From assembly GCA_947494445.1 (NCBI GenBank), contig CANLVD010000002.1, forward strand, positions 372,001 through 436,000: 64,000 nucleotides of DNA, written 5' to 3'. The stretch comes from an uncultured Paracoccaceae bacterium. Lineage in GTDB: Bacteria; Pseudomonadota; Alphaproteobacteria; Rhodobacterales; Rhodobacteraceae. Positions 7,071 to 41,329 of the stretch are shown piece by piece (the first letter of the stretch is position 1; each line of letters starts with the position of its first letter). The notes beneath the pieces are model-generated. The model ran no database searches and was not told the DNA's origin. It saw only the letters and a list, made by a program, of their open reading frames with translations. The position numbers and the translations under genes are program-made.

Positions 7071-7071
7071 T

Positions 7072-8565
7072 CTAGAGCGGGATCAGAAAGAGTGTGATTG
7101 CAGGGAAAAGTACCAATATGACCACGCGGATCAGGTCTGAGCCCACGAAGAACATCACCGCCTTGTAAGTGTCCAGCATCCGCGTGTCGCGATCCATGGC
7201 GTTGATGACGAAAAGGTTCATTCCCACCGGCGGTGTAATCAGCCCGACCTCGACCACGATCAGGACAAGGATGCCGAACCAGATCGCCGTCCGCTCAAGT
7301 GCTATCTGGTCAGCCATGCCCTGCGTCACGCGGATGTCGATGGCCTTTTGCAAGTCGCGCGGAATTTCCGCGCCTGACGCGATCAGCGTATCGATCTGGG
7401 CGCGGATGTCAGGGGCAAGATCTGTGGCCGTTGCAAGTGCTGCGCGCGCGGCCTCATGCTGCATGGCGATCAGATCGACCAGTCCGAAATCCAGCGCCGA
7501 GATGACGGGAAAGAAGATCGGCACGGTCAAAAGGATCATGCTGAGGCTGTCCATCACACAGCCAAGGATCAGATAGAACACAAGGATACAGGCCAGCACC
7601 ATCCACGGGCTGAACCCCTGCCCGACCACGAAGTTCGAGATCTCCTGCGGCACGTTCGATAGCGCCAGAAAGCCGTTGTAGAAGGCCGCGCCCAGGATGA
7701 TGAAGAAAATCATCGCGCTGGATTTGGCTGTGACCGTGAAGCTTTCCATCAGGGTGGAGCGTGTCAGCCCCCCGTTGATCCATGCGATAAGACCAGTGCC
7801 AGCAGCGCCCACAGCAGCACCTTCTGTCGGGGTGAACCAGCCTGCATAAATGCCGCCCACCACGAGCCCGAACACCAGAAGGACGGGCCACACATCAAAC
7901 AGCAGGCGGAACCGTTCGGCCATGGGGATCGCGTCTCTGGTGCCAGCGCTGTCAGGATAAAGTCGAACATAGACCGAGATCGCAAGCACATAGCCAAGGG
8001 CTGCCAGAATGCCCGGGATGAAAGCCGCCAGAAACAGCTTGGCGATGTTCTGCTCGGTCAGGATCGCATAGATCACCAACACCACGGAGGGTGGGATCAG
8101 AATGCCCAACGTGCCGCCCGCGGCCAGTGTGGCGGTGGAAAACCCGCCGGAATACCCATAACGCCGCAACTCTGGCAGGGCTACACGTCCCATTGTGGCA
8201 GCGGTTGCCAAGGAAGATCCGCAGATTGCGCCAAAGCCTGCACAGGCGCCTACTGCGGCCATTGCAACACCGCCGCGCCTGTGGCCAAGAAATCCCTCGG
8301 CTGCCTTGAAAAGTGCTGTCGACATGCCCCCCAAAGTCGCGAAATGTCCCATCAGCAGGAACATCGGCACAATCGTCAGGGAGTAGCTGGAATAGGTCGA
8401 ATAGGTCTCAGACTTCAGGCGTCCAAGGGGGATATTGAAGCTGCCCGTGACCAGATAGATGCCAAACAGACCGGCTAGGAACATCGCCAACCCGATGGGG
8501 ACCCGGATGAAAATCAGGATCAGGAGAGCGGGGAACGACAGAAAGCCAATGGCAAGATCGCTCAA
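7072..8565 (-). CDS. TRAP transporter large permease (DctM family)
   Basis: This is the 497-residue multi-spanning subunit that couples sodium movement to solute uptake in TRAP transporters. Visible DctM features are GICGSSLATAATMGRVALPELRRYGY near the middle-N region and a C-terminal VEVGLITPPVGMNLFVINA. An insertion of about 70 polar residues (including AALATATDLAPDIRAQ) lies before the last helices. The start is a TTG whose TTGA overlaps the stop of the small-permease gene and is preceded by GGAGAC. It is the last gene of the leftward operon. Confidence 0.88.
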   Translation of the reverse strand: MSDLAIGFLSFPALLILIFIRVPIGLAMFLAGLFGIYLVTGSFNIPLGRLKSETYSTYSSYSLTIVPMFLLMGHFATLGGMSTALFKAAEGFLGHRRGGVAMAAVGACAGFGAICGSSLATAATMGRVALPELRRYGYSGGFSTATLAAGGTLGILIPPSVVLVIYAILTEQNIAKLFLAAFIPGILAALGYVLAISVYVRLYPDSAGTRDAIPMAERFRLLFDVWPVLLVFGLVVGGIYAGWFTPTEGAAVGAAGTGLIAWINGGLTRSTLMESFTVTAKSSAMIFFIILGAAFYNGFLALSNVPQEISNFVVGQGFSPWMVLACILVFYLILGCVMDSLSMILLTVPIFFPVISALDFGLVDLIAMQHEAARAALATATDLAPDIRAQIDTLIASGAEIPRDLQKAIDIRVTQGMADQIALERTAIWFGILVLIVVEVGLITPPVGMNLFVINAMDRDTRMLDTYKAVMFFVGSDLIRVVILVLFPAITLFLIPL

Positions 8566-9221: not shown

Positions 9222-10253
9222 TCAGCCGCCGGTTGCCATCAGCGCCTTGGCCCGGTCGATCAGGGCCTGCCCGTCAATGCCCTTCTCGGACATCTCGGCC
9301 AGCCAGTTGGTATAAACAGGCTGAGCGGCTGCGGCCCAGACAGCCGATTGGGCGGCATCAAGCGTGACGACGTTGTTGCCACGATCCAGCGCCAGTTCGC
9401 GGGCCGGATCGTCGTATTCCTGCATGGTCTGGCCGGCAAATGCCGAGAATTCCAGGCCGGAATTGTCATCCATCACCGCTTGCAGATCGGCTGGAAGCGC
9501 GTCGAACTTGGCCTTGTTCATGGCCAGCACGAAAGTCACGGTATACATCATCGGCCCGGTGAACTCGGTATGGTTTTCCACCAGTTCAGGCACTTTCAGC
9601 GCTTTGGTGACTTCCCAGGGGATTGTCGTGCCGTCGATCACACCTTTCGACAGCGCCTCGGGCACTGCCGGAACAGGCATGCCAACAGGTGTCGCACCGA
9701 GTGTGTTCAAAAGAGCGTTGATCTGGCGGGATGCGCCGCGGATCTTCATGCCGTTGAAATCCGACGGTTGGGTCACTTCCTTGTTGGAGTGGATCATGCC
9801 CGGCCCATGGACCCAGCCACCCAGCAGTTTGTAGTCAGCAAATTCGGTTTCGGCGATGCCCTCATCCAGCATGGTCCAGAAGGCGGCAGAGGCAGTTTTC
9901 GCGTCATTGACCAGAAACGGCAGTTCAAAGACTTCGGTGGACGGGAATCGTCCGGGCGTGTAGCCAACCACGCTCCATGACATGTCGACCACACCGTTGA
10001 GCACCTGATCCAGCAACTCGGGCGGTTTGCCCCCCAGTTGCATGGAAGCATAACGGTTGATCTTGATCCGGCCCTCGCTTTCAGCCTCGATCTTGTCGGC
10101 CCAGACATCAATGATCTTGGCGGGAATGGTGGCCTGCGCGGGCAGGAAGCTTTGCAGGTTGAATTCGAAATCCGCTGCCTGAGCGGGCGCGCCAAGGCCC
10201 AGCGCCAGCGCACCGGCGCTGATCAGCCCCAGAACTGTTCTACGTTTGGTCAT
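9222..10253 (-). CDS. TRAP transporter solute-binding protein (DctP family)
   Basis: This is the 343-residue periplasmic protein that captures the substrate. It begins MTKRRTVLGLISAGALALG with a signal peptide cut near APAQA-A. The DctP landmarks follow: NRYASMQLGGKPPELLDQV, an MKIRGASRQINALLNTLGA segment carrying the conserved substrate-contacting arginine, and a final helical tail. The ATG at 10253 is preceded by GGGAGG; a longer frame to 10328 has no such site. The substrate is not readable from sequence, but linkage to CoA enzymes resembling carnitine enzymes suggests a carboxylate such as a betaine or carnitine derivative. Confidence 0.87.
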   Translation of the reverse strand: MTKRRTVLGLISAGALALGLGAPAQAADFEFNLQSFLPAQATIPAKIIDVWADKIEAESEGRIKINRYASMQLGGKPPELLDQVLNGVVDMSWSVVGYTPGRFPSTEVFELPFLVNDAKTASAAFWTMLDEGIAETEFADYKLLGGWVHGPGMIHSNKEVTQPSDFNGMKIRGASRQINALLNTLGATPVGMPVPAVPEALSKGVIDGTTIPWEVTKALKVPELVENHTEFTGPMMYTVTFVLAMNKAKFDALPADLQAVMDDNSGLEFSAFAGQTMQEYDDPARELALDRGNNVVTLDAAQSAVWAAAAQPVYTNWLAEMSEKGIDGQALIDRAKALMATGG

Positions 10254-10358
10254 GACAATCCTCCCTTGATTGCTGTTAGCGGCATCTTGGGGTTTGTGCG
10301 GGCAATTGCAACTCCTCCTTGCGTCCAAATGAGGATCAGCAGCGCCGTTTTCAGCCTG

Positions 10359-11138
10359 TCATTTGCCTTTCCAGACCGGATCACGCTTCTCGGCGAAGGC
10401 ACGCGCGCCTTCCATCTGGTCCTCAGACGCATAGAGCCGGTCGACCGTCGCCAACTGACGGCCGGTAATCCGGTTGAGTGCATCCTGAAACTTGGCATCC
10501 TCGGCATCGCGCACGATGTCCTTGATCGCGGCATAGACCAGCGGTGGGCCTGAGGCCAAAAGGGCCGCCAACGCGCGAGCGCGTGTCATCAATTCACCCG
10601 CAGGCAGGATTTCATTGACCAACCCCCAGCGATGGGCCTCTTGCACGTCAAACCAGCGCCCGGTCAGCAGCAGTTCCATTGCAATGTGATAGGGGATGCG
10701 TTTGGGCAGCTTTATGCTGGCGGCATCGGCAACTGTGCCTGAGCGGATCTCGGGCAAGGCAAAGCTCGCATGATCAGCGGCCAGAATGATGTCGGCAGAC
10801 AAAGCCAGTTCCAGACCACCCCCGCAGGCGATGCCATTGACCGCAGCAATCACCGGTTTGTTCATTTCGCGCAGTTCCTGCAAACCACCAAAGCCGCCAA
10901 CGCCATAGTCGCCATCCACCGCATCGCCGTCTGCTGCGGCCTTGAGGTCCCACCCGGGGCAAAAGAACTTCTCCCCCCCGCCCGTCAGGATCGCCACCCG
11001 AAGATCGGGATCGTCGCGAAAATCGCGGAACACCTCTCCCATGATGCGGCTGGTGGCCAGATCGATGGCATTGGCTTTGGGCCTGTCGAGGGTCACTTCA
11101 AGTACAGCACCATTGCGACTGGTTTTTACTGGGGTCAT
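10359..11138 (-). CDS. caiD: Carnitinyl-CoA dehydratase-like enoyl-CoA hydratase
   Basis: This 259-residue crotonase-fold enzyme closely resembles CaiD, which interconverts carnitinyl-CoA and crotonobetainyl-CoA. The shared motifs are VTLDRPKANAIDLATS near the start, GEKFFCPGWDLKAAADGD, NKPVIAAVNGIACGGGLELA (oxyanion-hole region) and the C-terminal FAEKRDPVWKGK, which is almost a CaiD signature. It lies 3 bases after the acyl-CoA ligase gene. The exact acyl-CoA is inferred; a general enoyl-CoA hydratase cannot be excluded. Confidence 0.8.
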   Translation of the reverse strand: MTPVKTSRNGAVLEVTLDRPKANAIDLATSRIMGEVFRDFRDDPDLRVAILTGGGEKFFCPGWDLKAAADGDAVDGDYGVGGFGGLQELREMNKPVIAAVNGIACGGGLELALSADIILAADHASFALPEIRSGTVADAASIKLPKRIPYHIAMELLLTGRWFDVQEAHRWGLVNEILPAGELMTRARALAALLASGPPLVYAAIKDIVRDAEDAKFQDALNRITGRQLATVDRLYASEDQMEGARAFAEKRDPVWKGK

Positions 11139-28470: not shown

Positions 28471-29465
28471 AACCTGCTGCCCACCATGCGTGCGACATCG
28501 ACAAGCCGGTGCGCATAGCCGAATTCATTATCGTACCACGCGTAGACCTTCACCTGGGTTCCATTGACCACCATGGTCGAGAGTGCGTCGATGATGCTGC
28601 TGCGCGGATCGTTGATGTAGTCGGAAGACACCAGCGGGCGCGTCTCGTACCCCAGAATGCCCTGCAAGGATCCTTCCGCTGCCTCTTGAAACAGTCCATT
28701 CACCTCCTCCACTGTCGTTGCACGCGCCATCTCGAACACGCAATCGGTGATCGATGCATTGAGAAGCGGCACCCGCACCGCATGGCCGTTCAGTTTGCCG
28801 GTCAACTCAGGATAGATCAGCGTGATCGCGGTAGCCGAGCCTGTTGTGGTCGGGATCAGATTGGTCAGGGCGGAACGGGCGCGGCGCAGGTCTTTGGCTG
28901 GACGGTCCACGATGGTTTGTGTGTTGGTCACGTCGTGGATGGTGGTGATCGAGCCGTGTTTGATCCCGATCCCGTCAAGCAACACCTTGACCACCGGTGC
29001 CAGACAATTGGTCGTACAACTGGCCGCCGTGATCACGTGGTGGGTCGTTGGATCATAGATGTGATCATTCACGCCATAGACGATGTTGGCCGTGGGGCCA
29101 TCCTTGACCGGGGCGGAAACCACGACCTTCTTCACTCCCGCCCTGAAATATGGCGCAAGGGCGGCTTCGGTTTTGAAGGCACCAGTGCAATCGATCATCA
29201 CATCAATGCCCGCCAGTGGCAGGTCCTCCAGCTTGCGGGACGAGATGACCGGAATGTAGGTGCCATCGATGGTGATTGACTGCTCACCGGCCGAGAATGC
29301 TGCGGGCCAGCGACCATGGATGCTGTCGAACTCCAGCAGATGCGCATGCATCTGCGGATCACCCACAGCATCATTCACAAAGGCAATGTCCGCACCACTT
29401 TCCAAAAGCGGGCGCAAGGCCAGTTTGCCGATCCTACCCAGACCATTGAGTGCATAAGTGGTCAT
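28467..29465 (-). CDS. Arsenate-associated glyceraldehyde-3-phosphate dehydrogenase
   Basis: This 332-residue GAPDH uses arsenate in place of phosphate to make 1-arseno-3-phosphoglycerate, the substrate ArsJ removes. Seen are the NAD-binding [17 protein letters not shown], the catalytic [16 protein letters not shown] and the closing [16 protein letters not shown]. The ATG at 29465 overlaps the arsR-arsC stop by four bases. It is specialised by context; a housekeeping gap gene is expected elsewhere in the genome. Confidence 0.9.
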
Positions 29466-30304
29466 GGATGAGCACTCCCTTCGCATGTCGTTGCGCGTCC
29501 GATGTCATCAAGTGCTCTTTGCAGGCCAGTGCGATCCAGTTCTGAAAATGGCAGTGCCGCAAATGTATCTATGCGCCTGGCCAATGCCGTGTATGCCTGT
29601 TCAAAGGCAAAGCGTTGTTCAGGCGCGGAACCACCTGCCATCACAGGATCGGCCACACCCCAATGGCTGGCAATCGGATGTCCGGGCAAGGATGGGCTGT
29701 CGTCATTTGCCGCAAGATCACAAACGGTCAGGACGACATCCATCGGCTTTGCTTCCGGTTGATGGAATTCGGAAACCGATTTTGACCGCAGCTGGGAAAT
29801 GTCATGGCCATGGCCACTGAGCACATCCAGCGTGACCGGGTGCAATTCGGATTCTGAGGCAAGGCCAGCCGAAAAGACTGAAAAACTGTCGCGTGCCCTG
29901 TCTTTCAACAGAGCTTCGGCAAAGATCGAGCGGGCGGAGTTTTTGCTGCACAGAAACAGGATGGAAGGTTTCTCACCTACTTTCGCGGCTGAGGCCAATG
30001 GCTCCGGCAGGCACAACTCGGCGCGTCCGCGACAGCAATCCAGAAACAGGTCCGAGATGACATCCTGAACAGCGGCCAGATTGACCGCGTAGAGCAGCCG
30101 CGTTCCGCTGCGGCGTTGCGTGATCAACCCGCATCGGGTCAGCGCTGAAAGATAGACAGACGCCGTGCTAGCCTTGAGGTGTAAAGCGCTCGCGATCTCA
30201 CCTGCCTGCACCTCGTCAGGGCAGCGCCGCATCAAAAGCCGAAAGACATCCATACGCTGTGGATGGCTGAGGGCGGACAGGCGGTTGATCAGTTTTGATT
30301 CCAT
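29462..30304 (-). CDS. ArsR repressor fused to ArsC-type low-molecular-weight phosphatase
   Basis: This 280-residue fusion joins an ArsR winged helix (residues 1-95; [20 protein letters not shown]) to an arsenate-reductase/LMW-phosphatase domain (about 110-250) with the P-loop [18 protein letters not shown] and a downstream DVVLTVCD region. It could both repress the operon and reduce or bind arsenate. It lacks a clear ArsR CVC metal-binding motif on the DNA-binding helix, so its inducer site may lie elsewhere, for example CCRGRAELC near residue 90. An inverted repeat covers its start codon. Confidence 0.87.
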
Positions 30305-30336: not shown

Positions 30337-30672
30337 TCAATGTGAGATCATCCAGGGCCGCTTGGATGGAAAGCTTTTGGAGCCATCAGGACGGTAGAGC
30401 GTTTTGCTCTTTTTCTTCTGCCCCGAACCGCTGCAACAGCCGCAGCCGGGACCATGGGTGCTGGTTCTCTTGGGAGAGTCTGCCGAACGTTCGTTTGTGG
30501 CATGACCAATGCGCACGGCAGAACTGACCATGGAAATGGCAGGAGCGGTCAACATGACCCTTGGTGCATCATGACCGCAAGTCGGACAATCGGCAGGTTC
30601 GGCATAGCGGCTCATGGCTTCCAATGCTTCAAACGGGCCGCAGTCCTTGCAGTGGTATTCATATACAGGCAT
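30337..30672 (-). CDS. fmdB: FmdB-family zinc-ribbon protein
   Basis: This 111-residue protein starts MPVYEYHCKDCG and carries the paired CxxC motifs (CKDC, CPTC) of the FmdB zinc ribbon, plus a basic, glycine/cysteine-rich tail (GPGCGCC). FmdB proteins are linked to formamidase genes and are thought to be regulatory, though their mechanism is unproven. It lies 60 bases after fmdA and ends the leftward amide/urea cluster. Confidence 0.85.
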   Translation of the reverse strand: MPVYEYHCKDCGPFEALEAMSRYAEPADCPTCGHDAPRVMLTAPAISMVSSAVRIGHATNERSADSPKRTSTHGPGCGCCSGSGQKKKSKTLYRPDGSKSFPSKRPWMISH

Positions 30673-30732: not shown

Positions 30733-31962
30733 TCACAGATCGGGGGCAAGAGGGACGTCGACGCTGCCATCAAGGAACTTGGTCGGGCCGTCCGCATTGG
30801 GCATCATGTCCCATTCAAAGATGTCATTGGGCAGCCAGAGCGTGGCACAGGCGTTGGGAATATCGACAACGCCCGAGATGTGGCCCTGCACAGGGGCTGT
30901 GCCCAAGATCGCGTAGGCCTGCGCACCCGAGTAGCCAAATTTCTTGAGGTACTCGATGGCGTTCAAACAGGCCTGACGATAGGCGATGTGAACATCCAGA
31001 TAGTGCTGCTCGCCACTTTCATCGACGCTGATGCCTTCAAAAATCAGATAGTCATTATAGTGAGGCGTAATCGGAGACGGCTTGAAGATCGGGTTCTTCA
31101 CGCCGTATTTCGACATGCCTTCCTTGATCATCGTGACCTTCAGATGCAGCCAGCCTGCCATTTCGATCGCGCCGCAGAAAGTGATCTCGCCATCGCCCTG
31201 ACTGAAGTGCAGATCGCCCATGGAAAGGCCCGCACCATCCACATAGACCGGGAAGTAGATTTTTGAGCCGCGGCTCAGATCCTTGATGTCACAGTTCCCG
31301 CCATGCTCGCGTGGTGGAACGGTGCGCGCGGCTTCTGCGGCAGCGGCATCGCGTGCGTCGCCCTTCATTGCACCCATATGCGCGCTTTGCGTGTTGGGCA
31401 GGGCCGCAAGGGGTGGCGTGCGATCTGGATTGGTGTTGAAAAGCGCTGTTTCCCGCGTGTTCCACATGTCCAGCATGTCACGATCGGGCAGACAGCCGAT
31501 CAGTCCGGGATGGATCAGGCCCGCATACTTCACGCCCGGCACGTGGCGAGACTTTGTGAACATCCCGTCGATGTCCCAGATCGATTTCTGTGCTTCGGGG
31601 AAATGTTCGGTCAGAAAGCCGCCGCCATTCTGCTTTGAGAAGAAGCCGTTGAAGCCCCAAAGCATGTCTTCCTTGGCACCGATATCAAGGATCTCGACCA
31701 CCAGCAGGTCGCCGGGCTCAGCGCCTTTGACGCCAATCGGACCCGAGAGGTAATGGACCTGCTCTAGCTCCACATCGCGTACATCGCTCGCGTCGTCATT
31801 GTTGGCAATTTGGCCGCCCGTCCAGTCATAGGTTTCGATCTTGAAATCATCACCCGGCTCGACCCAGACATTGATCGGGATGTCGGGATGCCAGCGGTTG
31901 TGAATGTTCTCGTTGGTGTGCGGGCTTTCACTGAGATCTACCGAGATCAACGTATCGGCCAT
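30733..31962 (-). CDS. fmdA: Formamidase
   Basis: This enzyme of the acetamidase/formamidase family hydrolyses formamide and other short amides to ammonia and the acid. The 409 residues show family stretches FKIETYDWTGGQIANND, PGDLLVVEILDIGA, GLIHPGLIGCLPDRDML and HLHFSQGDGEITFCG-type sequence (DLHFSQGDGEITFCGAIEMA). AAGGAACG precedes the ATG at 31962. It sits 24 bases after urtE of the second transporter, which makes amide as well as urea uptake likely, as in the fmd cluster of Methylophilus. Confidence 0.9.
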   Translation of the reverse strand: MADTLISVDLSESPHTNENIHNRWHPDIPINVWVEPGDDFKIETYDWTGGQIANNDDASDVRDVELEQVHYLSGPIGVKGAEPGDLLVVEILDIGAKEDMLWGFNGFFSKQNGGGFLTEHFPEAQKSIWDIDGMFTKSRHVPGVKYAGLIHPGLIGCLPDRDMLDMWNTRETALFNTNPDRTPPLAALPNTQSAHMGAMKGDARDAAAAEAARTVPPREHGGNCDIKDLSRGSKIYFPVYVDGAGLSMGDLHFSQGDGEITFCGAIEMAGWLHLKVTMIKEGMSKYGVKNPIFKPSPITPHYNDYLIFEGISVDESGEQHYLDVHIAYRQACLNAIEYLKKFGYSGAQAYAILGTAPVQGHISGVVDIPNACATLWLPNDIFEWDMMPNADGPTKFLDGSVDVPLAPDL

Positions 31963-31986: not shown

Positions 31987-32676
31987 CTAGACTGAGAGAA
32001 ATTCCGAGACCTTGGCCTCGTCGATGCCGCTGCGCGGGCTGTCATGCACGAAGTTGCCGTTCTCGATGACCATCACCCGATCCGCCACGTCGAGCGCAAA
32101 GCTCAGAACCTGTTCGGAGACGACAATGGAAAGCCCTCTCTGGTCGCGGATCTTGCGCAAGGTGCGGGCCATCTCGCGGATGATGGAGGGCTGGATGCCT
32201 TCGGTCGGTTCATCAAGCAACAAGAGCTTTGGGTTGGAGGCAAGTGCACGGGCGATCGCAAGCTGTTGCTGCTGCCCGCCCGACAGATTTCCACCCCGCC
32301 GGGATTTCATCTCCAAAAGGACAGGGAACAATTCGTAGATGTCATCTGGGACCTGCGATTGCCCAGTGACCGTCAGCCCGGTCTCGACGTTCTCTTCAAC
32401 TGTCATGGCCGAGAAGATCATCCGGCCTTGCGGCACATAAGCGATGCCCTTGGCAACCCGCTGATGCGATTTCATGCCCGTGACATCCGTGCCGCCCACG
32501 TCCACAGCACCCGATTTCTCAGGCACGATGCCCATCAAGGTTTTCATCAAGGTGGTCTTGCCCATGCCGTTGCGGCCCATGATGGCGACGATCTCGCCGG
32601 GCTTAACGGTCATATCCAATCCGTGCAGCACTTCGCTTTCACCGTAGGCTGCGCGCAGGTTCGAGATGTTCAGCAT
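31987..32676 (-). CDS. urtE: Urea/short-chain amide ABC transporter ATPase UrtE (second copy)
   Basis: This 229-residue LivF-type ATPase has Walker A GRNGMGKTT, signature LSGGQQQQLAIARAL and Walker B LLLDEPTEGIQP. It keeps the exact GRNGMGKT motif usual for UrtE, where the first copy reads GTNGVGKT. It is followed by fmdA on the same strand. Confidence 0.9.
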   Translation of the reverse strand: MLNISNLRAAYGESEVLHGLDMTVKPGEIVAIMGRNGMGKTTLMKTLMGIVPEKSGAVDVGGTDVTGMKSHQRVAKGIAYVPQGRMIFSAMTVEENVETGLTVTGQSQVPDDIYELFPVLLEMKSRRGGNLSGGQQQQLAIARALASNPKLLLLDEPTEGIQPSIIREMARTLRKIRDQRGLSIVVSEQVLSFALDVADRVMVIENGNFVHDSPRSGIDEAKVSEFLSV

Positions 32677-32689
32677 GCCCGATACTCCC

Positions 32690-33436
32690 TCAATGACCCA
32701 GATAAACTTCGATGACTTTAGGGTCGGCTTTCACATGGGCCATTGACCCTTCGGAAAGCATCTTGCCCTGATGCAGCACATTCACCCGGGTTGCGATGTC
32801 CTCGACAAAGCCCATGTCATGCTCGATCACGATGACAGAACGATCAGCAATGATCCGGTTCAGCAATTCGGCGGTCTTGACCCGCTCGGCCACCGACATG
32901 CCTGCAACCGGCTCGTCCAGCATCAACAACTCGGGGTCCTGGATCAGCAGCATGCCGATCTCCAGCCACTGCTTTTGCCCATGGCTCAGGAATGCTGCCT
33001 TCTCGGACAACATGTCTTCGAGAAAGATCATCTCGGCGATTTCCTGAATGCGCTCCTGAACGACCGCATCGCGGCGGAACGCCAATGCGCCGAAGACGCT
33101 GTAGCCCTTGGGGTAGCTGATTTCGAGGTTCTCGAAGACCGTCAAATCCTCGTAAACCGATGGCGTCTGGAACTTGCGCCCGACACCTGCGTGAACGATC
33201 TGATCCTCTCGCATGGTCAGCAGTTCCTTTTCGCGGAACTTGACCGAGCCATCGGTGGCTTTTGTGCGCCCACAGATCAGATCAAGAACAGTGGTCTTGC
33301 CCGCACCATTGGGACCGATGATCACGCGGCACTCGTTGGGTTCGACATAAAAGCTCAGGTCATTGACCGCTTTGAACCCGTCGAAGGAAACAGTCAGCCC
33401 TTCGACCTTCAGCAGATATCCTTGGGGTGCGGTCAT
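32690..33436 (-). CDS. urtD: Urea/short-chain amide ABC transporter ATPase UrtD (second copy)
   Basis: This 248-residue LivG-type ATPase has Walker A GPNGAGKTT, signature FLSHGQKQWLEIGMLL and Walker B LLMLDEPVAGM. The ATG at 33436 overlaps the urtC stop by one base. A longer frame to 33541 only reads back into urtC and is rejected. Confidence 0.9.
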   Translation of the reverse strand: MTAPQGYLLKVEGLTVSFDGFKAVNDLSFYVEPNECRVIIGPNGAGKTTVLDLICGRTKATDGSVKFREKELLTMREDQIVHAGVGRKFQTPSVYEDLTVFENLEISYPKGYSVFGALAFRRDAVVQERIQEIAEMIFLEDMLSEKAAFLSHGQKQWLEIGMLLIQDPELLMLDEPVAGMSVAERVKTAELLNRIIADRSVIVIEHDMGFVEDIATRVNVLHQGKMLSEGSMAHVKADPKVIEVYLGH

Positions 33437-34581
33437 CAGGCGGCCTCTTTCTCTTTGGGGGATGGGGCCACGAGCGGTTTTGCTGTCGGTTTGCGACCCT
33501 CCATCAGACCTGCAATCCGCGGCATGATCTTCTCGGACCAAACGCCCGCCAGGCCATTGGGAAACAGCATCACGACTGCGATGAAGAGACCTCCCAGACC
33601 GAAGAGCCAGAGCTCGGGAAAACTTTCGGAGAATGTGGTCTTGGCCCAGTTAACCAGCAGCGCTCCGTAAACCGCGCCAAGGATCGACAGACGCCCGCCC
33701 ACGGCACAGAAGATTACCATCTCGATAGACGGTACGATGCCCACCAGCGTTGGCGACATGAAGCCCACCTGCAACGTGAACATGGCCCCGCCGATCCCGG
33801 CGAATGCCGCGCCAAGACAGAAGATGAAGATCTTGAAGCCAGCGACGTCATACCCCGAAAAGCGTACCCGGTCTTCTTGATCGCGCATGGCAATCAGAAT
33901 ACGGCCCAACTTGGATTTGCGGACGAATTGCGCGATCACCAGAACCACGAACAGAAGCACACCGTTGACGTAGTAAAGCACCTCCTTGGCTTCATCGGTG
34001 CGGATGTCCCAGCCTTTGAGCGTGCGCAAATCAGTGATCCCGTTCACCCCGCCGGTATAGCCTTGTTGACCGATGATCAGGATGGTCAGGATCGCGGCAA
34101 AAGCCTGCGTGATGATGGCAAAGTAGACGCCACCTACACGCCGGCGGAACATCGCGACCCCGATGATGAAGGCAAAGATCACCGGCACGATCACCACGGC
34201 CACAAGTGAAAAGGTCAGGCTGTAGAACGGCACCCACCAGGATGGGAGCTCGGTCAGCTGGTTCCAGTCCATGAAATCGGGAATTCCCGGTGTAGACTGG
34301 ATGGATGTGTTTTCCGGGGTCGATGCCTCAAGCTTGAGGAACATCGCCATACAATACCCCCCCAGCCCGAAGAACACGCCCTGCCCGAGGCTCAGGATCC
34401 CGCCTGCCCCCCAGCACAATACCAGCCCTATGGCCACGAAGGCATAGGTCAGGTACTTGCCGAACAGGTTCAGGCGAAAATTATCAAGCGCCAGCGGCAG
34501 CAGGACGAAGATCACCACCGCCAGCACGATGAATCCGATCAGTTCCTGACGTGTGAACAATGAGGTCTTGGAGATTGTCAT
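33436..34581 (-). CDS. urtC: Urea/short-chain amide ABC transporter permease UrtC (second copy)
   Basis: This 381-residue LivM-type permease has about ten membrane segments and the marker WGAGGILSLGQGVFFGLGGY near residue 60, plus IAMRDQEDRVRFSGYDVAGF in the cytoplasmic loop that contacts the ATPase. The ATG at 34581 is taken as start; two GTG codons at 34590 and 34584 are alternatives with no better ribosome site. The C-terminus is polar, lysine/glutamate-rich. Confidence 0.88.
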   Translation of the reverse strand: MTISKTSLFTRQELIGFIVLAVVIFVLLPLALDNFRLNLFGKYLTYAFVAIGLVLCWGAGGILSLGQGVFFGLGGYCMAMFLKLEASTPENTSIQSTPGIPDFMDWNQLTELPSWWVPFYSLTFSLVAVVIVPVIFAFIIGVAMFRRRVGGVYFAIITQAFAAILTILIIGQQGYTGGVNGITDLRTLKGWDIRTDEAKEVLYYVNGVLLFVVLVIAQFVRKSKLGRILIAMRDQEDRVRFSGYDVAGFKIFIFCLGAAFAGIGGAMFTLQVGFMSPTLVGIVPSIEMVIFCAVGGRLSILGAVYGALLVNWAKTTFSESFPELWLFGLGGLFIAVVMLFPNGLAGVWSEKIMPRIAGLMEGRKPTAKPLVAPSPKEKEAA

Positions 34582-34593
34582 CACAGCCACCCG

Positions 34594-35520
34594 TTACTTG
34601 CGCAATTTGAGAGAGAAGAGACCCTGAGGCCGGATCATCAGAATGCCTACAACCACCAGCAGCGTCAGCACCTTTGCCATGGATCCGGAGAGGAAGAACT
34701 CCATGATCGACTGAGCCTGCGAGATCGAGAAAGCCGAGGCGATGGTGCCAAGGATGCTGCCTGCGCCGCCGAAGACGACCACAAGGAAGGTGTCAACGAT
34801 GTAAAGCTGGCCTGATGTGGGGCCGGTTGATCCGATCATTGTGAAGGCCGATCCGGCAACACCAGCCACGCCGCAGCCAATGCCGAATGTCAGACGGTCG
34901 GTCCATTCAGTGTTGATCCCGACAGCGCCCGCCATGACGCGGTTCTGATTGATCGCGCGCACCTGCTTGCCCCAGCGCGAACGGAACATCATCACGTAGA
35001 CGCAAAGGGAAATGCTGACGGCAAGGATCATCACGAAGATCCCGTTGATCGGCACTTCGATCAGGTCAGTGACAGGCATGGAACCCATCATCCAGTTCGG
35101 GATGGTCACGCCGACCTCTCGCGCGCCGAAGACGCTGCGGTAAAACTGTTGAAGGATGAGGCTGAGGCCCCAGGTTGCAAGAAGCGTGTCCAGCGGGCGT
35201 TTGTACAGGTGTCTTATGATCGACCATTCGACCAGTAAACCAAGCGCGCCTGAGGCAAAAAACGCCAGGATCATCGCCACGAAAAAATACGCAGGAAACA
35301 GGCCGGGCAGAAAGGCCGAGAAGAAATTGGAAACGAAGTATGTCACATAAGCGCCAAGGATCATGAACTCGCCATGGGCCATGTTGATCACGCCCATCTG
35401 ACCGAAGATGATCGCAAGCCCGAGGGCCATGAGAACAAAAACCGAGAACAGGATCAGGCCTGCAAAGCCCTGCATGGCGAAGATCGCCCCCAGTTCGGAC
35501 ATCGAATAATCGGAAAACAT
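34594..35520 (-). CDS. urtB: Urea/short-chain amide ABC transporter permease UrtB (second copy, short form)
   Basis: This 308-residue LivH-type permease has the UrtB marker IIFGQMGVINMAHGEFMILG near residue 38. It lacks the 330-residue periplasmic extension of the first copy. It lies 12 bases before urtC and 94 bases after urtA, both gaps being free of genes. Confidence 0.9.
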   Translation of the reverse strand: MFSDYSMSELGAIFAMQGFAGLILFSVFVLMALGLAIIFGQMGVINMAHGEFMILGAYVTYFVSNFFSAFLPGLFPAYFFVAMILAFFASGALGLLVEWSIIRHLYKRPLDTLLATWGLSLILQQFYRSVFGAREVGVTIPNWMMGSMPVTDLIEVPINGIFVMILAVSISLCVYVMMFRSRWGKQVRAINQNRVMAGAVGINTEWTDRLTFGIGCGVAGVAGSAFTMIGSTGPTSGQLYIVDTFLVVVFGGAGSILGTIASAFSISQAQSIMEFFLSGSMAKVLTLLVVVGILMIRPQGLFSLKLRK

Positions 35521-35614: not shown

Positions 35615-36883
35615 TTACTGGTAGCCTTCGGGAAACGGATCAGGCTCGACCAGTTCAGCGGTCTCGAATACCACCTCATACTGACCATCGGGCTTGGCCA
35701 GACCGACGCGGGTCTTGGACCAGAGGTGATGGTTTTCATGCACCTTGACGTAGCCTTCGGGCGCTGTATCCAGCTCGATCCCGATCTGGGCTTCGCGCAC
35801 CTTGTCGACGTCAAAGCTGCCCGCTGCCTCGACAGCAGCTTTCCAGAGCCATGGGCCAAGATACGCGGCCTGTGTCACATCGCCGATCACGATGTCTTCG
35901 CCCCACATTTCCTTGAAAGCTTTAACGAAGGCTGCGTTGTTTGGATTGTCCAGCGACTGGAAGTACTTCATGCAGGCATACGCGCCTTCCATGTTCTCGC
36001 CGCCGATGCCCAGAATTTCGTCTTCCGTTACCGAAATGGTCAACAGAACTGGATCCTCGGCTGTCATATCGATGCCTGCTGCCTTCAACTGCTTGTAGAA
36101 CGCGACATTCGAGCCACCCACCACAATCGCATAAATCACATCGGGCTTGCGCAGACGGATCTTGTTGATGACGGAGTTGAACTGGGTGTGGCCCAGCGGA
36201 TAGTACTCCTCGCCCACGACCTTGCCTCCGAGGAAATCCTCGATGTGCTTGCGGGCGATCTTGTTGGATGTGCGTGGCCAGATGTAGTCGGACCCCAGCA
36301 GATAGAAGGTGTTCGCACCCTTGGTTTCCTTGACCCAGTCAAGGCCCGCGATGATCTGCTGGGTCGCTTCCTGACCGGTGTAGATCACGTTGGGGCTTTG
36401 CTCCAGACCCTCATAGAAGGTCGGATAATACAGGAACCCGTTGTGCTGCTCGAAGACCGGCAGAACCGCCTTGCGGCTGGCCGATGTCCAGCACCCCATG
36501 ACAGAGGCCACTTTGTCATTGACCAGAAGCTTGCGTGCTTTTTCCGCAAAAGTTGGCCAATCCGATGCGCCGTCTTCCTGAATGACCTCGATCTTGCGGC
36601 CCAGCACGCCGCCCATGTCGTTGATCTGCTTGATTGCCAGCTTTTCGGCCTGAACCGATCCTGTTTCCGAGATTGCCATGGTGCCGGTGATGGAATGCAG
36701 GATGCCGACCGTGACTGTATCATCGGTGACAGCCAGACCTGTCGTGTTGACTTCGGCTGTTGGATAGCTTTGGGCCAGAAGATTCTTTGGGGCAAACAGT
36801 GCCGCACCAAATGCAGCGCTTGTGGCCATCATCGCGCGACGGCTGAAGCCCTTTGGCGGTTTCGAGGACGGTGTATCGGACAT
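35615..36883 (-). CDS. urtA: Urea/short-chain amide ABC transporter binding protein UrtA (second copy)
   Basis: This 422-residue periplasmic protein has a twin-arginine-like signal (FSRRAMMATSAAFGAALF, cut near LLAQ-S), unlike the Sec signal of the first copy. UrtA hallmarks are VGILHSITGTMAISE, GASDWPTFAEKARKLL and YYPTFYEGLEQSPN. The ATG at 36883 has AAGGA six bases upstream; frames open further upstream have no ribosome site. It heads the urtABCDE-fmdAB run. Linkage to formamidase argues for formamide or similar amides as substrates alongside urea. Confidence 0.9.
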   Translation of the reverse strand: MSDTPSSKPPKGFSRRAMMATSAAFGAALFAPKNLLAQSYPTAEVNTTGLAVTDDTVTVGILHSITGTMAISETGSVQAEKLAIKQINDMGGVLGRKIEVIQEDGASDWPTFAEKARKLLVNDKVASVMGCWTSASRKAVLPVFEQHNGFLYYPTFYEGLEQSPNVIYTGQEATQQIIAGLDWVKETKGANTFYLLGSDYIWPRTSNKIARKHIEDFLGGKVVGEEYYPLGHTQFNSVINKIRLRKPDVIYAIVVGGSNVAFYKQLKAAGIDMTAEDPVLLTISVTEDEILGIGGENMEGAYACMKYFQSLDNPNNAAFVKAFKEMWGEDIVIGDVTQAAYLGPWLWKAAVEAAGSFDVDKVREAQIGIELDTAPEGYVKVHENHHLWSKTRVGLAKPDGQYEVVFETAELVEPDPFPEGYQ

Positions 36884-36969
36884 ATCCATTCCTTTTCGAG
36901 TGCTAATAGATTGGGCGATTCCACGTTCACCCGCCCTCAAAGCATCAGCCCAAGCACCCACCGGCCGAC

Positions 36970-36987
36970 ATACGTCGAATGACGTAT
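36970..36987. promoter_or_regulatory. Inverted repeat between urtA and the sensor kinase, candidate response-regulator site
   Basis: ATACGTC and GACGTAT form a perfect 7-bp inverted repeat with a four-base spacer, 87 bases upstream of urtA and 124 bases before the divergent kinase. Its size and position suit a dimeric LuxR/NarL-type regulator such as the one at 40442. This is inference from position and symmetry only. Confidence 0.45.
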
Positions 36988-37110
36988 ATGCCTGCGTGTT
37001 TTGCCCCCTATGCTGAGAGCAAAGGGGAAAAGCCCATTGGATGGAGGCCAGCAAGTCGCAGCATCACCTGCGGCCCATGAAGTCTTGTTTGAACGAGAGC
37101 GCGTCTGAAT

Positions 37111-40100
37111 ATGGTCACGGCACTACAAGCCACCAGCGAGAAACGGACCTACAATCGCTGGGTTGCGAATGAGACGATGGAAGATTTCGCCTTGCGCTTC
37201 ACCGCACGCAGGGCACGCAGGTGGAGCTACGCACGGGTGGCCAACACCGCCATCGGTTCGATCTCGTTTCTGGCGCTTGAGGCCATCGGCGGGGCCATCA
37301 CCATCACCTATGGCTTTGACATCGCAATTGCCGCGATCATGTTCGTGGGCACAATCCTGTTTCTGACCGGATTTCCGATCTGTTACTATGCCGCGCGCTA
37401 TGGTGTGGACATCGATCTGCTGACGCGGGGCGCGGGCTTTGGGTACATCGGCTCGACCATCACTTCGCTGATCTATGCGTCTTTCACGTTCATTTTCTTC
37501 GCCCTTGAAGCCGCCATTCTGGCGCTGGCACTGGATTTTCTGTTCAACATCCCAATTTTTCTGGGCTACGTGATCTCGGCATTGGTGGTGATCCCGCTGG
37601 TGGTGAACGGCTTTTCAAAGATCTCGGCATTTCACACATGGACCCAGCCGCTTTGGGTCACGCTGCACATTCTGCCTTTCGCGCTGCTGGCATTCGTGGG
37701 TTACGATCTGGACGCATGGACAGGGTTTGAGGGCTATGAAGGCGGCAAGGGCACCTCAACCCTTTTGATGTTCGGTGCAGCCTCAGGCGTGATTTTTTCA
37801 CTGGTGGCCCAGATCGGAGAGCAGGTTGATTTCCTGCGGTTCCTGCCCGAACCCAAGACACGCTCTGATCGTCGCAAGTGGTTTGCAGCCCTGTTGGTCG
37901 CCGGTCCCGGCTGGTCAGTGCTGGGCGTTCTGAAGATGGTGGCGGGATCCTATCTGGCCATTCTCGCGATCCGGGAGGCGGTTCCTGTCGAAGATGCGGG
38001 CGATCCCACGCATATGTATTTCACCGCCTTCGATCAGGTCTTTGGTTCCCCTGCCCTCGTGCTGTTGCTGACGGGTCTTTTTGTGGTCCTGTCCCAGCTC
38101 AAGATCAACGTGACAAATGCCTATGCAGGCTCGATCGCGTGGTCGAATTTCTTTTCGCGGCTTACCCACAGCCATCCCGGTCGTGTGGTCTGGCTGGTGT
38201 TCAATGTGGGCATCGCGCTGATGCTGATGGAGCTTGGCGTGTTTCAGGGTCTGGAGCAGGTGTTGCGGCTTTATTCCCATGTTGCTGTTGCATGGATCGG
38301 AGCACTGGTCGCTGATCTGGTGATCAACAAGCCGCTGGGCCTCAGCCCCAAGGGCATCGAGTTTCGCCGAGCTCATCTTTACGACATCAACCCGGTCGGA
38401 ATGGGTTCCATGGTGCTTGCCTGCATTGCCTCCATTTTGGCGGCAATCGGCTTTCTGGGACCGCTGGCAGAGGCGTTTTCGACCGTCATCGCATTGGGTG
38501 TCGCGTTTGTCTGCGCGCCGGCCATCGCATGGGCCACGGGCGGCAAGTACTATCTGGCCCGACCCGATACGACAGATCCGGCCGAAGCCATGCAAAGCTG
38601 TTCGATCTGTGATTTCCGTTTCGATCACGAGGACATGACACATTGTCCGTTCCACTCCGGCCCGATCTGCTCGCTCTGCTGCACACTGGACAGCAATTGT
38701 CAGGACAGCTGTAAACCCCATGCCCGGCTGGCGACGAATTTCCACAATCTGGTGCATCGCCTGCTGCCCGCAAATCTGGCCACCATGGCCCTGTCGCGCC
38801 TGTCCCGTTTTCTGGTCTTCACCAGCCTGATCGGTGGGTGCTTTGGCGGATTGCTTCTGGTGATCCGGGCGCTTGAGGGGTCGCCCAATTTCGGCGCGAC
38901 ACTCACCATCATCTTCGGCATCGTGCTGATCATCATTGGGATTTCCGTATGGATGTTTCTGCTGATCAACGAGGGGCATCAACTGGCCCGGGCCGAGACC
39001 AACCGCCAGACCGACCGTTTGCTGCGCGAAATCCGAGCGCATGAGCGCACCGACGGCGCCTTGCAGGCTGCCAAGGACAAGGCAGAGGCTGCAAATCTTG
39101 CCAAGACCCGCTATCTGACAGGTCTCAGCCACGAGCTGCGTACGCCGCTTAATGCCATCTACGGTTTTGCCCAGATCCTTGAGAAAGACCCTTCGATCCC
39201 TGCCCATCGGCGGGAATCCGTCTCCACCATCCGGCGCAGCAGTGAACATCTGGCAGGTCTGATCGAGGGGTTGCTCGACATCTCCCGGATCGAGGCCGGA
39301 CGGCTTGAGATCATGCGTGATCGCATCAATCTGAGCATGTTCATCAAGCAGGTGACATCCATCTTCGAGGAGGAAGCCCGTAACAAGGGTGTCACTTTCA
39401 CGGTCGAGACCCGCGGCCCCTTCCCGTCATGGGTTGCTTTTGACGAAAAGCGGCTGCGGCAGATCCTGATCAACCTTCTGTCCAATGCCTTGCGTTACAC
39501 CGAGAAAGGCGAAGTGCTTCTCCGCGTGGCTTACCGGAACGAAGTTGCGCAGATCGAAGTGATTGATACGGGTGTTGGCATAGATCCGGCTTTCCTACCA
39601 AAAATCTGGCGTCCCTTTGAGCGGGGCAGCCATTCCAAGATCCGTGGCTCGGGTCTAGGTTTGACGATCACCAAACTGCTGGTTGAAATACTGGGCGGAG
39701 AGATCGACGTGACCAGCACACTTGGCACGGGCAGCACCTTTACAGTGCGCCTCATGCTGCCTTCGATCACGCCCGACAGCATTCAGGACAAGGCGATCAA
39801 GACCGACACACGCTCCCTGCCCGTGACCGGCTATCATGGTGCACGCAAGTCGATTATGGTGGTGGATGATGACCTGAACCATCTGGCGCTGATCTCCCAT
39901 GTGTTCGAACCTCTGGGCTTTGCCGTGATCTGCGCCTCTGATGCTGAAACCGCTTTGGAACTGTTGACAGACTTCCGCCCGGATATTTTTGTTCTGGACA
40001 TCGACATGCCGGGCCGCGACGGCTGGTCGCTGGCAAAGGAACTTAGAAGCGGGACCCTTGTTGGCATCCCCATCATCATGATCTCGGGCCACGCAAAGGA

Positions 40101-40449
40101 TGCCGAAAAACCCCGCCCGCAACTGGCGCTTTATGATGCGTTCGTCTCCAAACCCTACAACCTTGATGATCTGATCATCCGCATCGGCGAGTTGCTGAAG
40201 CTTGAGTTCATTCTGGAGCAGGACGAGACAGGTGATCAACAAAGCAAGACCAGCCTGTCTGGACAGGATGCCAAGACCCTGATCCAGCTTGCCCTGTCTG
40301 GCAAGGCCAGCGCCATTCGCGCGCAGTTGATCCAACTGGAAACGGATCACGCCTGCCCTGAGCCCCTGATGGCCCGGCTCAAATCCCAACTCGCAGCCTT
40401 TGACCTTCAGGGCATTGCAAAGGAACTGGAGGATCAGACCCATGATTGA
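37111..40449 (+). CDS. Hybrid sensor histidine kinase with NCS1-transporter-like N-terminus
   Basis: This 1112-residue protein begins with about 470 residues resembling an NCS1 (nucleobase/allantoin) permease: the opening NRWVANETMEDFALRFTARR and some twelve hydrophobic segments. A cysteine-rich module follows at about 496-534 (CSICDFRF, CPFHSGPICSLCC, CQDSCK), which may bind metal. Two more membrane segments lead to HisKA (SHELRTPLNAIYGF, His near 674), HATPase (NLLSNALRYTEKG; GSGLGLTITKLL) and a C-terminal receiver (VLDIDMPGRDG, Asp near 963). The transporter part probably senses or co-transports a nitrogen compound. Its stop overlaps the response-regulator start. Confidence 0.85.
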   Translation: MVTALQATSEKRTYNRWVANETMEDFALRFTARRARRWSYARVANTAIGSISFLALEAIGGAITITYGFDIAIAAIMFVGTILFLTGFPICYYAARYGVDIDLLTRGAGFGYIGSTITSLIYASFTFIFFALEAAILALALDFLFNIPIFLGYVISALVVIPLVVNGFSKISAFHTWTQPLWVTLHILPFALLAFVGYDLDAWTGFEGYEGGKGTSTLLMFGAASGVIFSLVAQIGEQVDFLRFLPEPKTRSDRRKWFAALLVAGPGWSVLGVLKMVAGSYLAILAIREAVPVEDAGDPTHMYFTAFDQVFGSPALVLLLTGLFVVLSQLKINVTNAYAGSIAWSNFFSRLTHSHPGRVVWLVFNVGIALMLMELGVFQGLEQVLRLYSHVAVAWIGALVADLVINKPLGLSPKGIEFRRAHLYDINPVGMGSMVLACIASILAAIGFLGPLAEAFSTVIALGVAFVCAPAIAWATGGKYYLARPDTTDPAEAMQSCSICDFRFDHEDMTHCPFHSGPICSLCCTLDSNCQDSCKPHARLATNFHNLVHRLLPANLATMALSRLSRFLVFTSLIGGCFGGLLLVIRALEGSPNFGATLTIIFGIVLIIIGISVWMFLLINEGHQLARAETNRQTDRLLREIRAHERTDGALQAAKDKAEAANLAKTRYLTGLSHELRTPLNAIYGFAQILEKDPSIPAHRRESVSTIRRSSEHLAGLIEGLLDISRIEAGRLEIMRDRINLSMFIKQVTSIFEEEARNKGVTFTVETRGPFPSWVAFDEKRLRQILINLLSNALRYTEKGEVLLRVAYRNEVAQIEVIDTGVGIDPAFLPKIWRPFERGSHSKIRGSGLGLTITKLLVEILGGEIDVTSTLGTGSTFTVRLMLPSITPDSIQDKAIKTDTRSLPVTGYHGARKSIMVVDDDLNHLALISHVFEPLGFAVICASDAETALELLTDFRPDIFVLDIDMPGRDGWSLAKELRSGTLVGIPIIMISGHAKDAEKPRPQLALYDAFVSKPYNLDDLIIRIGELLKLEFILEQDETGDQQSKTSLSGQDAKTLIQLALSGKASAIRAQLIQLETDHACPEPLMARLKSQLAAFDLQGIAKELEDQTHD

Positions 40450-41329
40450 ACGGCCCGTAACGGAACAGAATATCGCACTGGTGGTGGATGATGATCCGGA
40501 CAGCCTGACCATGGTCTCTGCCGCGCTCGAGGAAAACGGCATGTCCGTGATTGTTGCGCGCGATGGCCAGACCGCACTGGATCTGGTCGGGCGGGTATCA
40601 CCCGACGTGATCCTGCTTGATGCCATCATGCCCCGGATGAACGGGTTCGAAACCTGCAAGCGACTGAAATCAGCGCCCTTGGCCACCGAGGCACCGATCA
40701 TTTTCATGACCGGTCTGTCTGATGCCGATGATGTGGTTCGGGGGTTGAGCGCAGGTGGTGTGGATTACATCACCAAACCCATCGTCGTGGATGAACTGAT
40801 CGCCCGGATCGGCATTCACATCGTGAACTCCAAATTGATCCAGAGCGCGCGCGACGCGCTTGATACGTCAGGCCGGTCGATTTTGGCCTTTGACCGGCAA
40901 GGTGAACTGGTCTGGGGGTCGGCTCTGGCACTTGCATCCTTCACGCTTGCTGCGCCCCATCGGACCAGGCTGCGCGAATGGCTGTTGGACAACTCCAGAA
41001 AGCCGGTTTCACAAATCCAGCCACTGGTTCTGGATGGCAATGCCTTTGGTTTCGTTGGCCTGTCGAATTCCCGAGAAATCCTGATCAAGTTCAAACCGGC
41101 TGATCTGGAAACAAGTGAGCAGAAACTGGCACGTCTTCTGTTTCTGACCAGCCGCGAATCCGAGGTTCTTTACTGGCTGACCCTTGGCAAAACAAACCGG
41201 GACATCAGCGCCATTCTGGATCTCAGCCCACGCACAGTGAACAAGCATCTGGAACAGATTTTCCAGAAGATGGGCGTCGACAACCGCACTTCTGCCGCCG
41301 TCGCTGCGGACCGAATCCTGCACGAGTGA
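40442..41329 (+). CDS. Response regulator, receiver plus LuxR-type DNA-binding domain
   Basis: This 295-residue regulator has a receiver domain (phospho-acceptor Asp in VILLDAIMPRMNG), a linker of about 90 residues with a PAS-like opening (ILAFDRQGELVWGSALAL), and a LuxR/GerE helix-turn-helix (SRESEVLYWLTLGKTNRDIS ... LSPRTVNKHLEQIFQKMGV). The ATG at 40442 overlaps the kinase stop and follows GGAGG. By position its target is the divergent urt-fmd operon, perhaps through the inverted repeat at 36970-36987. Confidence 0.87.
   Translation: MIERPVTEQNIALVVDDDPDSLTMVSAALEENGMSVIVARDGQTALDLVGRVSPDVILLDAIMPRMNGFETCKRLKSAPLATEAPIIFMTGLSDADDVVRGLSAGGVDYITKPIVVDELIARIGIHIVNSKLIQSARDALDTSGRSILAFDRQGELVWGSALALASFTLAAPHRTRLREWLLDNSRKPVSQIQPLVLDGNAFGFVGLSNSREILIKFKPADLETSEQKLARLLFLTSRESEVLYWLTLGKTNRDISAILDLSPRTVNKHLEQIFQKMGVDNRTSAAVAADRILHE

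Follow-up and report, generated by a model that had tools for sequence, protein, structure and literature searches.

A hybrid histidine kinase with an NCS1-fold sensor domain beside urea and formamide genes: a probable urea/short-amide transceptor of Pseudomonadota

Domain layout of the kinase

The stretch of DNA analysed here (the window) comprises 64,000 nucleotides of an uncultured Paracoccaceae bacterium (assembly GCA_947494445.1, contig CANLVD010000002.1, positions 372,001 to 436,000), and the gene in question is an open reading frame at 37111-40449 on its forward strand, which in the open-frame listing of the window encodes a protein of 1112 aa. An earlier sequence-only reading had described it as a transporter-like N-terminus followed by a cysteine cluster, a kinase and a receiver, and exactly this order was recovered between these coordinates; the cysteine-rich module is likewise present, although it contains eight cysteines within 38 residues and not nine. 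The parts of the gene are as follows:

37111..40449, + strand: hybrid sensor histidine kinase, 1112 aa, with an NCS1-fold sensor and an eight-cysteine (Cys8) module (open reading frame, Pfam, AlphaFold2 model, PDB comparison)
37186..38550, + strand: NCS1-fold domain, approximately residues 26-480 (AlphaFold2 model, PDB comparison)
37507-37509, + strand: E133 (site mapping by alignment)
38101-38103, + strand: K331 (site mapping by alignment)
38116-38118, + strand: N336 (site mapping by alignment)
38599..38715, + strand: Cys8 module, residues 497-535, probably zinc-binding (invariant cysteines, weak zinc-domain matches)
38797..38970, + strand: two further long helices, residues 563-589 and 594 onward (model secondary structure)
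39103..39300, + strand: HisKA, residues 665-730, with phospho-acceptor H674 (Pfam, above cut-off)
39442..39759, + strand: HATPase_c, residues 778-883 (Pfam, above cut-off)
39853..40185, + strand: Response_reg receiver, residues 915-1025, with D963 and K1014 conserved (Pfam, above cut-off)

The HisKA, HATPase_c and receiver domains with their catalytic residues, as seen in Pfam matches and alignment, mark the protein as a hybrid histidine kinase; H674 is present in 80 of 81 kinase sequences, the remaining one having a gap. No conserved histidine occurs within residues 1030-1112 of the kinase alignment that would indicate an HPt domain after the receiver. The two long helices may form a TM13-TM14 transmembrane hairpin, and in the secondary structure of the model the one starting at residue 594 continues into the DHp helix. 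Residues 1-636 gave no meaningful match to Pfam profiles or PDB sequences, and NCBIfam was equally uninformative for the N-terminus, the weak rows returned for it (Vpu at 0.17, FYVE at 0.85 and others) being put down to chance; nor did any Pfam profile match the segment that leads from the transporter part to HisKA and holds the Cys8 module and the two helices. A related frame on a metagenome-assembled Cellvibrionaceae contig (locus L095, 9962-12028) is interrupted by a stop, which could reflect a decayed gene or an assembly error.

The sensor domain: fold, descent and binding pocket

The nature of the N-terminus emerged from its predicted structure. An AlphaFold2 model of residues 1-736, built from 57 sequences (the window's and 56 of the 80 related loci described below, with the interrupted L095 frame dropped), reached a mean pLDDT of 83.3 and a pTM of 0.78. 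The top Foldseek rows in the PDB for the sensor part were CodB and Mhp1, and VIA-align gave Z 32.8 for CodB (rmsd 3.5, 397 aligned) and 27.4 for Mhp1, above AgcS at 25.6. NCS1 entries thus lead by fold, the best SLC5 row shown, CHT1, having Z 23.8 as against 32.8 for CodB.

At the level of sequence profiles the relationship is more remote. The PF02133 profile matched none of 20 homologous kinase N-termini at E values up to 1, the window's own genome has no PF02133 match, and a profile made from the kinases alone did not retrieve Mhp1. A stand-alone permease encoded at locus L145, 27.8% identical to the kinase sensor (E 3e-31), itself matches PF02133 at 3.6e-9, and a joint profile that includes the stand-alone permeases retrieves Mhp1 at 1.3e-10. 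In a FastTree tree (midpoint-rooted for drawing only, with fragment L171 left out) 13 kinases form a single clade with support 1.0, and kinases and stand-alone permeases together are separated from Mhp1 and CodB with support 0.98-0.99. Comparison therefore supports an NCS1 fold and a distinct NCS1 subfamily for the sensor domain, and the earlier proposal of an NCS1-transporter-like N-terminus is upheld by both the predicted structure and the link through L145. Given this bridge, the joint profile and the one kinase clade beside the stand-alone permeases, a single recruitment from a separate NCS1 subfamily is the probable origin of the sensor.

At L145 (7784-12981) the permease gene lies by carbon-nitrogen hydrolases, a UrtA/AmiC-like binding protein and an AmiR-like ANTAR protein, and its product is a possible amide importer. 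Three further stand-alone relatives have Glu and Arg at the positions equivalent to E133 and K331; two of them (L254, L256) adjoin genes for hydantoinase/oxoprolinase A and B, and the third (L255) adjoins a carboxyltransferase gene.

Equivalences of the pocket and sodium site with Mhp1 and CodB were drawn by sequence alignment. Mhp1 S312, which we take to be a sodium ligand, aligns with CodB T278 and with K331 of the kinase, and CodB T279 aligns with I332. T278 and T279 are sodium ligands of CodB, and N318, Q121, W117 and W220 are substrate contacts of Mhp1, according to the portions of PMC9379551 and PMC4195764 available to us, respectively. In the kinase these four contacts correspond to N336, E133, F129 and L231, the last replacement leaving the second stacking aromatic missing. 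All 81 of the 81 kinases compared have E133, K331 and N336. The earlier reading had named the loss of all NCS1 substrate-site residues as what would reduce the domain to a relic; no such loss is seen, with Asn retained at N318, Phe or Leu at W117, and the pocket conserved. On this alignment the pocket looks specialised and conserved rather than lost or degenerate.

The sodium site is a different matter, as the kinase has no Na2 site with side-chain ligands on transmembrane helix 8 (TM8), the positions being taken by K331 and I332. Lys or Arg is found at the K331 position in none of the 30 PF02133 carriers fetched, but accompanies Glu in seven stand-alone relatives that the tree places with the kinases. 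Since Arg (with Gln) also occupies the Na2 position in four NCS1 carriers on the CodB side (L213, L214, L216 and L217), the sodium site has been lost outside the sensor's subfamily as well. With K331 at a sodium-ligand position, Na+-coupled transport is unlikely, and ligand binding would be sodium-independent. It had been proposed that the protein senses a nitrogen compound while binding or moving it; the urea/amide link in this proposal finds support, but movement coupled to Na+ does not. Because both a direct PF02133 match and the Na2 feature were looked for and found wanting, the protein is not classed among the Na+-coupled NCS1 carriers, nor is it placed with the SLC5/STAC kinases; it is best described as a sensor derived from NCS1. 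As for the range of ligands put forward earlier, urea and short amides are favoured, and hydantoin and allantoin are less likely, because the change from W220 to L231 removes one stacking aromatic and urea genes are common to most contexts.

The cysteine module, gene neighbourhood and candidate operator

The eight cysteines of the module (C497, C500, C512, C520, C523, C524, C530 and C534) are invariant in 81/81 kinases, as are D508, P513 and D532. Residues 478-560 folded alone gave a mean pLDDT of 79.6 and only weak matches in the PDB (no E below 0.41, no Z above 3.7), the upper rows being mostly zinc domains, which we take to be of the RING, PHD, FYVE, ZZ or C1 types; among these weak matches no Fe-S fold was noticed in the rows shown, which does not speak against Fe-S binding, and a PHROGs search with the module returned no match. 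Of the two kinds of metal binding for which modelling had been suggested, zinc is the probable one. In the model it lies after the last NCS1 helix and before the two helices that enter the DHp helix, and since this place matches that of STAC in CbrA, the module may couple the sensor to the kinase.

A kinase with receiver at L221 (7842-9710, + strand) has half of the Cys motif and the two helices without an NCS1 domain; a LuxR-type regulator and an alcohol-dehydrogenase-like gene, both named by eye, adjoin it at 9812-10705 and 6234-7400. The occurrence of half the motif and the hairpin without the transporter part suggests that sensor, Cys motif and kinase are modular, the sensor being swapped as a module.

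The neighbouring genes and the intergenic site in the window are:

40442..41329, + strand: response regulator with receiver and LuxR-type helix-turn-helix (HTH), probable ATG 40442, open frame from 40400 (Pfam)
36970..36987, strandless: perfect palindrome ATACGTCGAATGACGTAT, ATACGTC-N4-GACGTAT, candidate operator in the urtA/kinase intergenic region (relatives' alignment, site scans)
35615..37054, - strand: urtA, binding protein of a urea ATP-binding cassette (ABC) transporter, open frame with probable start at about 36883 (TIGR03407, above cut-off)
34594..35520, - strand: urtB (TIGR03409, above cut-off)
33436..34590, - strand: urtC (TIGR03408, above cut-off)
32690..33541, - strand: urtD (TIGR03411, above cut-off)
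31987..32676, - strand: urtE (TIGR03410, above cut-off)
30733..31962, - strand: fmdA, formamidase (NF045496, above cut-off)
30337..30672, - strand: fmdB-type zinc ribbon protein (TIGR02605 and NF053663, above cut-off)

The probable ATG of the regulator overlaps the kinase stop, and urtABCDE followed by fmdA and the fmdB-type gene, all assigned by NCBIfam cut-offs, lie divergently upstream of the kinase. Urease is encoded on another contig of the same genome. Adjoining fmdB, a frame at 29462-30304 on the - strand joins an ArsR-type HTH to a low-molecular-weight phosphatase/arsenate reductase-like domain.

In a sample of the class, 28 of 385 genomes, the window's own included, had a match (25 full-length N-termini, one fragment and two weak), the 24 other full-length matches being 52-68% identical. 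Within the window's own family none of the other genomes of the Pseudomonadota sample described next (at least 20) has the sensor, a patchy distribution at this level. Across Pseudomonadota 56 of 398 sampled genomes match, or 52 after removal of G402, G554, G595 and G645, which are not long kinase matches. Genome contigs yielded at least 565 confirmed encoded relatives, of which the named loci are the best 80 by alignment, so that synteny in them leans to close kin. Counted only where enough sequence was available, UrtA was found in 75/76 of these loci, UrtB in 73/74, UrtC in 72/73, UrtD and UrtE each in 71/73, and FmdA in 68/71; the LuxR-type regulator was present in 77/77 testable loci.

Another 30 loci were chosen by hand as a harder set: 20 were for the most part lower-scoring or second copies, and the other 10 were those that lacked a divergent UrtA within 1.5 kb among 52 loci, a number that includes the window and two loci twice. 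Full flanks were available for 26 of the 30, and UrtA, FmdA or urease alpha is present in 22 of these. In a table of 25 loci, two rows (L020, L030) were empty. The context tables and palindrome scan cover 110 loci and the IQ-TREE tree 63 kinases, all chosen subsets. Urease alpha was recognised by NCBIfam at L226, L230 and L244, by Pfam at L223, L224, L229 and L240, and by tblastn alone at L222, L228, L232 and L237; L246 has urea carboxylase and allophanate hydrolase (NCBIfam), and the L247 copies are 91-92% identical. L238 and L239, which are identical with L147 and L146, encode a kinase half of another kind that lacks a receiver, yet lie near fmdA. On the whole, most copies examined are divergent from urtABCDE and fmdAB, and others accompany urtABCDE with urease, urease alone, or urea carboxylase/allophanate hydrolase. 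The amide/urea uptake genes that had been pointed out beside the kinase are therefore a genuine association, which holds in alpha-, beta- and gammaproteobacterial loci.

These contexts have interchanged repeatedly: in the quick IQ-TREE tree 5 changes are required to account for the formamidase/urease label, and starred branches force the urease label, set against all others, to change at least 4 times. Discrimination of ligands by sequence columns was attempted and failed, as position 241 is the only one within residues 1-640 to differ systematically when 36 kinases from formamidase contexts are compared with 17 from urease contexts. Urea (urt with urease or amidolyase) is what most contexts have in common, and formamide is a close analogue of it.

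The palindrome is recognisable, with small changes, in 15 aligned sequences (the window and 14 relatives), and is the only site within 2 mismatches in the window (0.05 expected). Over the 110 loci 60 sites lie within 1 mismatch; 43 of the loci carry one in the 700 nt that precede the kinase match, a density of 0.58 per kb versus 0.007 elsewhere. For 56 of the 60 sites the kinase, urtA or fmdA follows within 600 nt, and in ten of these cases only fmdA does. Two of the other four, at L246 and L247, are found some 35 nt past the upstream end of the frame for allophanate hydrolase. A scan of 36800-37200 returned no sigma-70 promoter or terminator. The distribution of the sites points to the palindrome as the probable operator of the partner LuxR-type regulator.

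A proposed urea/short-amide transceptor kinase and its alternatives

We consider it likely that the protein is a urea/short-amide transceptor kinase, the NCS1 counterpart of CbrA and CrbS. Urea or formamide would bind the NCS1 pocket without sodium coupling and shift the helix bundle, and the movement would be passed through the cytoplasmic Cys8 module, probably holding zinc, and the two-helix hairpin to the DHp helix, altering autophosphorylation of H674. Phosphate could then reach the adjacent LuxR-type regulator, the kinase's own receiver (D963) acting as a modulator or relay, and the regulator would bind ATACGTC-N4-GACGTAT and activate urtABCDE-fmdAB; in relatives it may also activate urtABCDE, urease, or urea carboxylase/allophanate hydrolase. 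The parts of this scheme supported by comparison are the domain order, the fold, the conserved pocket, the gene partners and the conserved palindrome. In Methylophilus methylotrophus the fmd cluster is induced by formamide and urea and repressed by ammonia, as stated in the available part of PMC10781810, which fits the proposed activation. That cluster also resembles the present one in combining formamidase with binding-protein-dependent amide/urea uptake, whereas the same portion of the text mentions only a putative positive regulator and no NCS1 kinase.

Among known systems the closest are CbrA and CrbS, which similarly have a transporter domain, a coupling segment and a kinase in one chain, so that the CbrA-like transporter-kinase/receiver fusion recognised earlier is supported, with SLC5 replaced by NCS1. 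CrbS, itself a hybrid kinase, works with a LuxR-type partner that binds an inverted repeat (PMC5715377, in the part available), and CbrA has a lysine in its Na2 site (PMC13022988, likewise in part). The differences are the SLC5 fold and STAC in those kinases, as against the NCS1 fold and Cys8 module here, and the genes regulated, histidine or acetate in the former and urea/amide in the latter. Ks-Amt5 offers a looser parallel, being a nutrient transporter turned into a kinase sensor of a nitrogen compound, but has the Amt fold, is trimeric and lacks a Cys module, and its response regulator is not identified in the accessible sections of PMC5764959. Mhp1 and CodB share the fold, the Asn at the N318 position and an Asp at kinase position 240, and differ from the present protein in its fused kinase, Glu for Q121, Lys at the sodium-ligand position and missing second stacking aromatic. 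Operon III of Ectopseudomonas guguanensis G3 comprises urtABCDE, a hybrid kinase and a LuxR-type regulator, with fmdA at a neighbouring locus tag; the likeness is one of gene content, the genes being listed, in the excerpt of PMC13296017 at hand, without an NCS1 sensor or function.

Several observations weigh against the transceptor reading. The pocket sites were matched by sequence alignment and not by coordinates; Glu at the E133 position also occurs in 2 of the 30 ordinary PF02133 carriers, and F129 is replaced by Leu in 6 of the 17 urease-context kinases. L242, L245, L250 and L251, four of the 26 harder-set loci with full flanks, have no UrtA, FmdA or urease alpha nearby, nor has L073, and 56 of the 110 loci, including most from Bradyrhizobium, lack the palindrome within one mismatch. 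The palindrome is the only site within 1 mismatch in the window's own genome, but since a reversed control pattern also occurs there once, this whole-genome count proves nothing. With regard to the loci just named, L242, L250 and L251 come from three genomes of one genus, have kinase and regulator, and in two or three cases keep a palindrome-like site upstream.

Of the alternatives, the one that survives best, though still unlikely, is that the NCS1 domain also transports urea or an amide, probably with protons, and that the kinase reads the transport cycle, which would be compatible with sensing. The conserved pocket is in keeping with this, and as the nearest stand-alone permeases share Lys or Arg at the Na2 position, the change alone is no mark of lost transport; CbrA, with its lysine at that site, is indeed a transporting transceptor for histidine (PMC13022988, in part). 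Yet a dedicated ABC importer adjoins the kinase, and the Amt domain of Ks-Amt5 lost transport on becoming a sensor (PMC5764959, in part).

That the ligand is some other ureide or amide (hydantoin, allantoin, an oxoproline-like compound, or formamide alone), with the urea genes as downstream targets only, is doubtful. The idea draws on the hydantoinase/oxoprolinase and carboxyltransferase neighbours of the nearest permeases (L254, L256 and L255), on the carbon-nitrogen hydrolase with an AmiC/AmiR-like pair beside L145, and on formamidase being a neighbour in most of the best 80 loci, but it has to contend with urease and urea amidolyase contexts that turn up at several places in the tree with hardly any change in the pocket, and with the missing second stacking aromatic.

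It is improbable that the Cys8 module is itself the input, for a metal or redox signal, with the NCS1 domain as second input: eight invariant cysteines do lie on the segment joining sensor and kinase, and urease, a nickel enzyme, is among the partners, but the module does not differ between formamidase and urease contexts, and the folds that it weakly matches are those of structural zinc domains. Least credible is a kinase that reads UrtABCDE activity by contact, with the NCS1 domain a mere docking scaffold, for despite the tight linkage to urtABCDE and the reported existence of transporter-assisted kinases (DcuS is said to work with DctA), the same sensor residues are kept at L223, L224, L229 and L240, which have urease and no UrtA found nearby, and at L239, which has fmdA alone.

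In conclusion, the kinase is a real and widespread variant of the transporter-kinase theme, and its proposed ligand is probable. The open-access papers searched yielded neither an account of an NCS1-kinase fusion nor one of a urea-sensing histidine kinase, and we put at about even the chance of a broader interpretation, namely that these proteins constitute a widespread, undescribed class of NCS1 transceptor kinases serving Pseudomonadota as a dedicated urea two-component system, of one-subfamily origin, sodium-free through the Na2 lysine, with a zinc coupler doing the job of STAC and one palindromic operator serving several urea/amide routes. Urea and formamide are important nitrogen sources. 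The kinase would add to SLC5 and Amt another transporter fold turned kinase sensor; its conserved pocket, candidate operator and several contexts make testable the old question of how transporter movement is converted into a kinase signal, and the family offers candidate urea biosensors.

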